Shown: positions 12,286 to 14,853 of the stretch, in pieces
Layout: the number at the start of each line of letters is the position of its first letter
Position numbering within the stretch: the stretch's first letter is position 1
Source of the DNA: Myxococcaceae bacterium
GTDB lineage: Bacteria > Myxococcota_A > UBA9160
Length of the DNA: 64,000 nucleotides
Assembly (NCBI GenBank): GCA_905339255.1
Contig: CAJPFO010000107.1
Coordinates: forward strand, 1-64,000
Direction of reading: 5' to 3'
The notes under the pieces: model-generated
The model's input: the letters and a program-made list of their open reading frames with translations, nothing else
The model's database searches: none
Told to the model about the DNA's origin: nothing
Made by a program: the position numbers and the translations under genes

Positions 12286-13038
12286 TTGAGAAGGAGACAC
12301 CGTTCGGTGTGGGTCGGCCTGATCCTCGCGACGAGCGGGATCGGCTGCGATCGCCTCCCGGGTCGCCCCGAAGAAGCCGACCGCTTCGTCCGGCCCGACC
12401 GGTTGCTCGATCCGGACGCCCTTCTCGCCCGCCACTGCACGGGTTGCCACGGGGAGCCGGGACGGATCGGCCCCGCCCGAGATCTCGGCGATCCGCTCTA
12501 TCTCGCCTGGATCGGAAGGCAGGGGTTCCGTCGCACGACCGAGGAGGGCGTCGCCGGGACGCCGATGCCGGCGTTCGCACGTTCCGCGGGTGGTCCGCTC
12601 ACGGATCGACAGATCGCCGCGCTGGTCGACGGGCTCTACGCGCGTCATGGCGATGCGGCAGCGGGATTCGCCGCGGAGCTCCCGCCGGCATCCGAGAGCG
12701 AAGCGCGAAGACGGGGCCTCGAGCCCGGCGATCCGGCGCGCGGGGAGATCGTCTTCGGCGAGCGTTGCAGCTCGTGTCACGGCGGCCTCGGCGGAGTGGG
12801 CGGATCCGTGACCGACCCGGCGTATCTCGCCCTCACGAGCGATGCGGCGCTCCGCTCCGCGGTCGTCGTGGGGCGTCCCGAACTCGGCATGCCGCCCTTT
12901 CGCGGCTACGAAGGCGAGCCCGCGCTCGGCGACCAGGAGATCTCGGACGTGGTGGCGTGGTTGGCAGCGCAACGACCCGAGCGCCCGAGCGAGGAGCGAC
13001 GCTCCGCGGCGGCCGGTTTGCCCCGCAGCGAGCCGTAG
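12286..13038 (+). CDS. Di-heme cytochrome c, first gene of a bc-type complex module
   Basis: Exported c-type cytochrome of 250 residues with two heme-attachment motifs, CTGCH near residue 51 and CSSCH near residue 160, each followed by a distal region with a methionine (GTPMPAF and LGMPPF) that could be the axial ligand. The N-terminus is hydrophobic and ends SGIGCDRLPG, which could be a weak lipobox. Two starts are possible. TTG at 12286 gives a basic n-region. GTG at 12307 sits ten bases after AAGGAG. I list the longer form. It precedes the Rieske gene by three bases, so it is most likely the electron acceptor subunit of the quinol oxidase module. Confidence 0.85.
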   Translation: MRRRHRSVWVGLILATSGIGCDRLPGRPEEADRFVRPDRLLDPDALLARHCTGCHGEPGRIGPARDLGDPLYLAWIGRQGFRRTTEEGVAGTPMPAFARSAGGPLTDRQIAALVDGLYARHGDAAAGFAAELPPASESEARRRGLEPGDPARGEIVFGERCSSCHGGLGGVGGSVTDPAYLALTSDAALRSAVVVGRPELGMPPFRGYEGEPALGDQEISDVVAWLAAQRPERPSEERRSAAAGLPRSEP

Positions 13039-13041
13039 CCG

Positions 13042-13572
13042 ATGGAGGGGCGGCCGGAGACGGACGCACGCACGAGCGAGCCGCTCACGAGGCGGCGTCT
13101 GCTGCTTCGCGCGAGCGCCGCGCTCGCTTCGTTCGCGGGCTTCGTGGTCGCACTTCCGATCGTGGGCTTCGTGGTGGCGGCGATTTTCCGTCGCAAGCCC
13201 TCCCGCGCCTGGGTCTCGCTCGGCCCGCTCGACGAGTTCCCCGAACGCGAGACGAGGCTCGCCTCGTACCGCAACCCCTTTTCGACTCCACTCGACGGCG
13301 AGACGGCGCAGGTGCCGTGCTTCGTCCGTCGTCTCGACGGCGAACGGTTCCAGGTCTTCGCCGTCCAGTGCACGCATCTCGGCTGTCCGGTTCGATGGTT
13401 TCCCGAGGCCGGCCTCTTTCTCTGCCCGTGCCACGGCGGCGCGTATCATGCGGACGGCCGGCGTGCGTCGGGTCCGCCTCCGCGGGGCCTCTACGAGTAC
13501 GCTTGGCGGATCGAGGACGGCGAACTCTTCGTCCGGGCGGGCGATCTTCCGACGCCTTCCCGGGAGCCGTAG
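13042..13572 (+). CDS. Rieske [2Fe-2S] protein of a bc-type complex
   Basis: Iron-sulfur subunit of 176 residues that takes the first electron from quinol at the Qo site. The cluster ligands are intact: C110-T-H112-L-G-C115 and C128-P-C130-H131-G-G; the extra Cys115 and Cys128 form the usual disulfide. A single N-terminal membrane anchor (about residues 24-48) is preceded by TRRRLL, resembling a Tat motif, as expected for Rieske proteins. It lies three bases after the di-heme cytochrome c gene and six bases before the cytochrome b/c gene, so the three are an operon. Confidence 0.93.
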   Translation: MEGRPETDARTSEPLTRRRLLLRASAALASFAGFVVALPIVGFVVAAIFRRKPSRAWVSLGPLDEFPERETRLASYRNPFSTPLDGETAQVPCFVRRLDGERFQVFAVQCTHLGCPVRWFPEAGLFLCPCHGGAYHADGRRASGPPPRGLYEYAWRIEDGELFVRAGDLPTPSREP

Positions 13573-13578
13573 GCCGCC

Positions 13579-14853
13579 GTGCCCACCGGGCGCTGGCTCT
13601 CCGTCTTCGGGAGCGCGGCCCTCGTCTGCCTCGTGCTCCTCGGAGCGACGGGGGTCGGCCTCTCGTTCGTCTACGTTCCGTCGGCGGCGCAGGCCTGGAC
13701 GAGCCTCGAGATCCTCGACTACGAGGCCCCGCTCGGCTGGTACCTGCGCGCGCTCCACGACTGGGCCGCGAGCTTTCTCATCGCGCTCCTCTCGATCCAT
13801 CTCGCGCGGATCTACGTGGCCGGCGCGCAGGCATTCGCCCGCGGGCTCGCTTGGGCGTCGGCCTGTCTCGTGCTCGTGCTCGTTCTCGCGATGGCCGCGA
13901 CGGGGCAGGGACTCCGCTTCGATCAGGACGCCTACTGGGGCATTGGCGTCGCCGTGGCGATCTTCGCGCGAGCGCCATTCGTCGGCGAAGCCCTCGTCGC
14001 AGGCTTGCTCGGCGGCCCGGGGATCGGCGCCGCGACGCTCTCGCGTTTCTTCGCGTTGCACGCGTTCATCCTCCCGGGGCTCCTGTTCGCGGCGCTCGTC
14101 TGGCATCTCGGCACTCTCCTCGGGAGCGGGACCCGGCAGGAATGGGGATCGCGCGAGAAGACGGTTGCCGCGCACCTCGCTTTCGCCGCGGTCGTGCTTC
14201 TCGCGGCGGCCGGTTCCGCGGCCCTCTTCGGTCCGAAGGGGCCGAGCGGCCCTCCCGATCCGACACTCGCTGGTGTGGCTCCGCGTCCAGACTTCTTCCT
14301 CGTCCCCCTCGTATCCTCGCTCGCGCTGCTGCCCTCCTTCGCGCGGACCGTTGCTCTCTGGCTCGTCCCTGCGATCGCTCTCGGGCTCCTCTTCGCGGTA
14401 CCGTGGCTCGATCCGGGGGGAGCGAGGAGCCCGCGTGGCCGCGCCGTGGCGCTCGCCGGGGTGACCGGGATCTTCTTCGTGCTCGGCGGGCTCGTCTGGG
14501 CCGGCCGGGCGTCGCCGTGGTCGCCGGCGCTCGAGGCTTGGAGCTCGGAGGCGCCCCCCGAACGGACGCTCGCCGGACGCTCGCCCCTCGAACTCGCCGG
14601 TGCGGTCGTCTTCCAGGCCCGGCAATGCCCGAGCTGTCATGCCGTGGAGGGTTCGGGAGGCCGTCCGGGACCCGGGCTCGCCGACGTCGGAACGAGGCTC
14701 GGGCGCGACGAGATCGTCGCCTTCGTGCGCGAGGGGAGCGAGAACATGCCCGCCTACCGGGGGCTCCTCTCCTCCGACGAAGAAGCGGCGCTCGTCGCCT
14801 GGCTCGTGACGCTCGGCGGCAGTGGCGCGTCGCCGGCGCGCGAGCGGCCGTGA
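13579..14853 (+). CDS. Cytochrome b fused to a C-terminal cytochrome c domain
   Basis: Membrane subunit of 424 residues. The N-terminal half is a cytochrome b core with four heme b ligands: His60 and His74 in one helix (13 residues between) and His161 and His176 in another (14 between, the b6f-like spacing). A C-terminal-half region has further membrane helices. The position of the Qo-site PEWY motif reads RPDFFLVP (about 236-243), an unusual variant. From about residue 336 a cytochrome c domain follows, with C350-P-S-C353-H and a candidate methionine ligand in SENMPAYRG. The start is GTG at 13579, six bases after the Rieske stop. The b, b-IV and c parts thus lie in one polypeptide. Confidence 0.85.

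Follow-up and report, generated by a model that had tools for sequence, protein, structure and literature searches.

The Q cycle of cytochrome bc complexes needs both quinone sites. In the Bacillus-type bcc complex, which consists of QcrA, QcrB and QcrC with a fusion of subunit IV and cytochrome c, membrane helices E-G and then a periplasmic cytochrome c stand in one chain, as they do at the locus described here; however, our locus joins b6 and subunit IV-c in one chain and carries a separate diheme cytochrome c in addition. Cytochrome b6f shares the spacing of 15 between the heme-ligating histidines of helix D, and b6 proteins are the closest solved relatives by sequence, but the heme c_i cysteine, the b6/subunit IV split and cytochrome f are all missing from our locus. 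The obligate bcc-aa3 supercomplex of actinobacteria also has a diheme cytochrome c and a PDF(Y) Qo motif, and its link to an aa3-type oxidase is found in the relatives of our locus, whereas our locus has a fused third c heme and no oxidase genes (PMC8361435). Rieske/cytochrome b complexes of anammox bacteria likewise include a cytochrome b fused to cytochrome c, and one branch is proposed to supply something besides the usual Q cycle, as may be the case here; they differ in their multiheme subunits and proposed NAD(P)H link, nothing alike being seen beside our operon (PMC12954380).

The canonical bc1-caa3 system is already known. In the acidobacterial strains of Trojan et al., the bc genes of the bc1-A1 caa3 superoperon lie directly downstream of the caa3 genes, and the bc genes of the relatives of our locus are placed in the same way (PMC8407424). 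Our locus agrees with them in the set and the order of the bc genes; however, it is without the caa3 genes, and its cytochrome b is shortened and divergent. The words fused, fusion, diheme and Rieske are absent from the main text of that paper. Neither the fusion itself nor an orphaned or loop-less member of the family was found in searches of the open-licence PMC literature.

The bc module and its family

The locus lies in a 64-kb stretch of DNA, referred to as the window, which is contig C107 of a draft metagenome-assembled genome (MAG) of 4.28 Mb in 335 contigs (90.07% complete, 3.91% contamination). The case made here rests on this one MAG. Three open frames on the plus strand make up the module:

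12286-13038, plus strand: diheme cytochrome c subunit, 250 aa, TTG start, frame open
13042-13572, plus strand: Rieske [2Fe-2S] subunit, 176 aa, CTHLGC...CPCHG, Pfam Rieske 3.7e-7
13579-14853, plus strand: cytochrome b (helices A-G) with a C-terminal monoheme cytochrome c, 424 aa, GTG start
13756-13800, plus strand (first to last codon): heme b ligands of helix B, His60 and His74, 14 apart
14059-14106, plus strand: heme b ligands of helix D, His161 and His176, 15 apart with 14 residues in between
14287-14298, plus strand: Qo motif Pro237-Asp-Phe-Phe240, the PEWY equivalent
14626-14640, plus strand: heme c motif CPSCH (residues 350-354) in the fused domain

The open reading frames and Pfam confirmed the adjacent diheme cytochrome c, Rieske protein and 424-aa b-c fusion of the preliminary description, and its assignment of a quinol:cytochrome c oxidoreductase module with three c hemes was right, as were the histidine pairs that it named (60/74 and 161/176). 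Pfam placed Cytochrome_CBB3 on two stretches of the diheme subunit, which carries CTGCH at residues 51-55 and CSSCH at 161-165, with Met94 and Met202 as the candidate Met ligands. The Rieske subunit probably has one N-terminal membrane helix, judging from its sequence. On the 424-aa frame, Cytochrome_B covers residues 9-180 (6e-34) and Cytochrome_CBB3 residues 340-409 (3e-11). A promoter scan of 12000-15100 found none, and tRNA and Rfam searches across the whole window gave 0 and 0.

A scan of genome contigs found 265 loci encoding a relative, from which the best 80 were kept; these were titled mostly Acidobacteria, Myxococcota or deltaproteobacteria, and Binatota. Ten further loci came from relatives in the window's own order, and the alignment then comprised 90 other fused proteins, to which all counts out of 90 below refer (best 80 of 265 plus ten). 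They amount to 86 unique proteins, and the duplicates (L044, L057, L070 and L080) are still inside the counts of 90. L122-L125 were excluded from the family alignments as other cytochrome b types or a cytochrome c hit. L122 (G024:C11:171000-182000) is a different Rieske/cytochrome b cluster; two of its ORFs have four CxxCH each, and its cytochrome b match as reported contains a TGA.

Every cofactor site needed for quinol oxidation, for the b-heme chain and for three c hemes can be found in the sequence. All four b-heme histidines are His in 90 of the 90 other aligned rows, as are the Pro and Asp of the Qo motif in theirs, and Cys350, Cys353, His354 and Met390 of the fused domain are identical throughout the same 90 rows. 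The Qo motif of M. smegmatis, PDFY, is similar to the PDFF of the window (PMC8361435). The C-terminal CxxCH stood in one ORF with cytochrome b in all 90 aligned relatives (86 unique), which rules out a frameshift or a sequencing join as the source of the fusion.

Among the unique loci with at least 1.5 kb upstream, window included (from the best 80 of 265 plus ten), a Rieske gene precedes the b ORF in 74 of 74 and a multi-CxxCH c gene lies upstream in 73 of 74, the exception being L071, whose c ORF shows one CxxCH. The window follows this order of diheme c, Rieske and cytochrome b-c. On these counts, order and fusion are the norm and not a novelty. The preliminary description had regarded the arrangement as out of the ordinary; order and fusion are instead typical of a widespread family (both upstream genes in 73 of the 74 unique loci, from the best 80 of 265 plus ten), best known from acidobacteria, and the arrangement is the standard one of a described system, the bc1-A1 caa3 superoperon (PMC8407424). 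Its label "b6f-like" held for the histidine spacing of helix D only. The heme c_i cysteine stands at b6 position 35 in helix A, which corresponds to Val9 in the alignment with solved relatives; this position is Val in 88 and Ile in 2 of the 90 other proteins (best 80 of 265 plus ten), and the parts equivalent to b6 and subunit IV form a single chain. In a phmmer search of the 424-aa protein against solved structures, cytochrome b6 came out on top (2zt9, 2.1e-32), with bc1 cytochrome b second. The module as first described is ordinary, and the window copy is best read as an orphaned, remodelled variant of it; the real oddities, the loss of the oxidase genes and of the cytoplasmic-side parts of cytochrome b, had been missed.

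The missing oxidase

The COX1 of a same-genus genome (G001) was used as tblastn query against the DNA upstream of the loci. COX1 was found upstream on the same strand in 64 of the 65 loci whose upstream DNA measured 4.2 kb or more (from the best 80 of 265 plus ten), and the sole exception was the window. After removal of duplicates, all 62 unique other loci had it, the window alone of 63 being without (same set of best 80 of 265 plus ten). COX2, COX3 and a 303-aa COX IV-like protein accompany COX1 in the loci listed. None of the four had a match anywhere in the 64-kb window, so that the caa3 genes (COX2-c, COX1, COX3) that the family has directly upstream are lacking there. The place from which they are missing can be located between anchors shared with G001:

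8070-10760, minus strand: left anchor, aconitase as named from its sequence, 83% to G001:C18:24485-27151
10947-12155, plus strand: left anchor, PilT-like ATPase, T2SSE 2.9e-50, 91.0% identical to the G001 copy
12156-12285, no strand: 130-bp junction from the PilT gene to the diheme c gene, where G001 has ~6.6 kb
14975-15928, plus strand: right anchor, alpha/beta hydrolase (lipase-like), Abhydrolase_1 9.6e-19, 81.4% to G001

In the ~6.6-kb block of G001, a GH3 gene in the opposite orientation is accompanied by a COX2 that bears a cytochrome c domain, by COX1 and COX3, and by the 303-aa COX IV-like gene. The GH3 gene (L174:4643-7087), which stands beside the oxidase block, is also missing at the window junction. 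Except for this block, the window is collinear with G001 contig C18 from 7 to 27 kb, with aconitase and PilT towards one end and alanyl-tRNA synthetase and GcpE towards the other (window proteins against C18). The same contig carries both the aconitase match and the G001 bc operon.

Elsewhere in the window's genome, the bc-linked COX1 of G001 found a best match of 40%, compared with 69% in G002 and 74% in G031, and this caa3 oxidase class was not found in the rest of the MAG (90.07% complete). The genome has four COX1-family hits, another COX1/COX2/COX3 set and one NrfD hit, the mark of alternative complex III; both families occurred in 11 of the 11 genomes tested. Respiration therefore need not depend on the lost oxidase. 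Cytochrome b gave only one match in the genome besides a cytochrome c hit, which speaks against a second, normal copy, with the MAG 90% complete.

A divergent cytochrome b

Columns shared by at least 95% of the other members were regarded as near-invariant. The window cytochrome b breaks 49 of 145 such columns, and the next worst of the 86 other unique proteins (best 80 of 265 plus ten) breaks 7 of 143. For the Rieske protein the count is 4 of 52, on a par with its next worst members (L112, L079 and L117 (= L057)), and for the diheme c it is 1 of 28; both subunits are near normal and have far fewer broken columns than cytochrome b (Fisher p 1e-4 and 5e-4). By region, with boundaries and topology that we set from homology, the broken columns are 20 of 31 on the cytoplasmic side, 6 of 43 in the periplasmic b domain, 12 of 38 in the membrane helices and 11 of 33 in the fused c domain; between the cytoplasmic and periplasmic sides, the Fisher test with these boundaries gave p = 1.4e-5.

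The cytoplasmic changes are of several kinds. The N-terminal segment is lost: just two codons of open frame lie ahead of the GTG, which follows the Rieske stop by 6 nt. The B-C loop motif KYPRE is AFARG in the window. The loop between helices D and E is shortened as follows:

14164-14175, plus strand: D-E loop deletion, 24 residues missing after residue 196, with Ala198-His199 in place of Lys/Arg-Asp, placed by alignment

Between His176 and the Asp column there are 22 residues in the window and 46 in 90 of the 90 other rows. Where all 90 others have an Asp, at the beginning of helix E, the window has His199, and the residue before it (Lys in 85, Arg in 4 and Gln in 1 of the 90; best 80 of 265 plus ten) is Ala198. 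In addition, the fused c domain is without the conserved Arg363, Arg381 and Gln382, which might, at a guess, fit the loss of a docking face.

Structure models, built from alignments of 52 and 51 of 91 rows, had middling mean pLDDT values of 71.7 (window) and 74.1 (G001). Bc1 cytochrome b (8smr_D) was the best PDB match of both. When helix H of bc1 was sought, the window model (pLDDT 71.7) had helices A-G and then the c domain. Helices 2-11, 13-21 and 223-237 of the G001 model are missing from it. No parallel case of a short loop was found in searches of the order (79 genomes) and the class (90 genomes), where the other strong matches were interrupted around query residues 184-190/195-200, which marks the presence of the loop, or were listed with one half only. 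Continuous matches in G067 and G024:C11 were rejected, being distant proteins of another kind (31-33% identity) with a TGA inside each.

In yeast, Asp229 and His202 of the Qi site hydrogen-bond the quinone (PMC9162462). When G001 was aligned with P. aeruginosa cytochrome b, its Lys-Asp fell on the Lys-Asp of bc1; the equivalent pair in R. capsulatus is Lys251/Asp252, where the window has Ala-His (PMC5001787). The replacement of this pair suggests that the Qn site, where quinone is reduced, may have been lost. However, bc1 and bcc complexes show considerable differences in their Qi sites, with b6f the most unlike (PMC9162462), and the loss of Lys-Asp therefore does not prove that quinone reduction is lost; with Ala-His, one protonable group remains. 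The best reading is that the Qn site of the remodelled complex is altered or lost.

Descent, selection and competing explanations

The window and G001 copies were sisters in the trees of cytochrome b (support 0.989), Rieske (0.985) and diheme c (0.978), which indicates descent rather than a foreign gene and speaks against horizontal replacement. However, dS to G001 was 0.90-1.14 in the three bc genes (12286-14850) and 0.59-0.68 in aconitase, PilT and lipase of the flanks (8073-15925); the higher values count against this rejection. The window branch was 1.009 in the cytochrome b tree, about 14 times the median of 0.073, the sister branch being 0.152. In the Rieske tree it was 0.643, the longest of 77 (median 0.139), and in the diheme c tree 0.621 against a median of 0.275, not the longest.

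Codon differences to G001 were 0.344 at the first, 0.259 at the second and 0.467 at the third position. A two-ratio codon model gave an omega of 0.23 on the window branch versus 0.082 elsewhere (LRT 5.6), and omega = 1 was rejected on that branch (LRT 13.3). With equal shares of the synonymous divergence assigned to the two sister copies, hand arithmetic puts omega at ~0.7, not 0.23. For the fused c domain taken by itself (LRT 0.9) and for diheme c (LRT 1.1), omega = 1 was not rejected; the codon fit for diheme c was unreliable, the two-ratio model ending below the one-ratio model, and the Rieske fit was unreliable too, being saturated. In a neutral simulation, 3.45%, 1.10%, 0.45% and 0.15% of runs were free of stops at 150, 250, 350 and 450 substitutions. 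Since the three genes have no stop, and given this simulation and the rejection of omega = 1, the bc genes are not simply dead. We conclude that selection was relaxed or redirected, not absent.

The explanation that we consider reasonably probable is that a bc1-caa3 superoperon lost caa3 in place, that the module is its remaining bc half, and that the orphaned complex has been maintained but remodelled. In such a complex, quinol would still be oxidised at Qo, and the high-potential electron would pass to the Rieske centre and on to the c hemes. From there it would go to another acceptor, such as a different oxidase or a soluble cytochrome, as the caa3 partner is gone. The second, low-potential electron would still reach heme bH, and quinone reduction on the inner side may be weakened, may occur at a changed site (possibly with His199 for Asp) or may be absent. 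What counts against it is that cytochrome b evolves close to the expectation for relaxed selection. The main rival, which we regard as rather unlikely, is a decaying operon, in which caa3 was lost, alternative complex III and another oxidase carry respiration and the bc genes are going, cytochrome b first. The cytochrome b branch of ~14 times the median, the rise of omega from 0.082 to 0.23 (LRT 5.6), and the NrfD of alternative complex III and further COX1/COX2/COX3 set in the genome agree with decay. On the other hand, the three frames are intact with all heme ligands kept, the losses lean to one side of the membrane, and Rieske and diheme c are far less broken than cytochrome b, which uniform relaxation would not give. 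A more specific proposal, that oxidase and quinone-reduction site were both lost while quinol oxidation and both b hemes were kept, so that the bH electron would go to a new cytoplasmic acceptor and no Q cycle would run, seems unlikely to us.

The presence of every cofactor site could also fit an ordinary working quinol:cytochrome c oxidoreductase in which gene order and three-heme electron path would both be unusual. This is very improbable: the gene-order part is already refuted by order and fusion being the family norm, and the window copy is a strong cytochrome b outlier without its oxidase. An artefact of assembly or binning, with the oxidase block dropped out or contigs misjoined, might be suspected in a single draft MAG of 335 contigs (90.07% complete, 3.91% contamination), but it is hardly probable at all, as both flanks are syntenic with G001 (81-91% identical in the three genes measured), the sister of the gene in its tree is the expected one, and a misjoin would not yield in-frame losses together with 49 replaced near-invariant columns.

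The remodelled, orphaned complex would be a natural example of an enzyme that is trimmed in its inner half but intact in its outer half, at the site where its partner oxidase was deleted. From it one could learn whether evolution can separate the two quinone sites of a bc complex, and whether a supercomplex partner holds conserved bc parts in place. What the locus encodes may be an energy-conserving enzyme in the course of remodelling or of decay, and, if it is decay, it would still be an example of how a supercomplex falls apart.

Other observations were made on the neighbouring genes and on the oxidase of the relatives. An MscS-family channel at 15929-18508 of the window has 37% identity to the G001 copy in mid-protein and 60% at its C terminus, its neighbours being better conserved. 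The bc-linked COX1 of G002 (G002:C106:3716-5196) is split over two frames in that draft, by error or decay.
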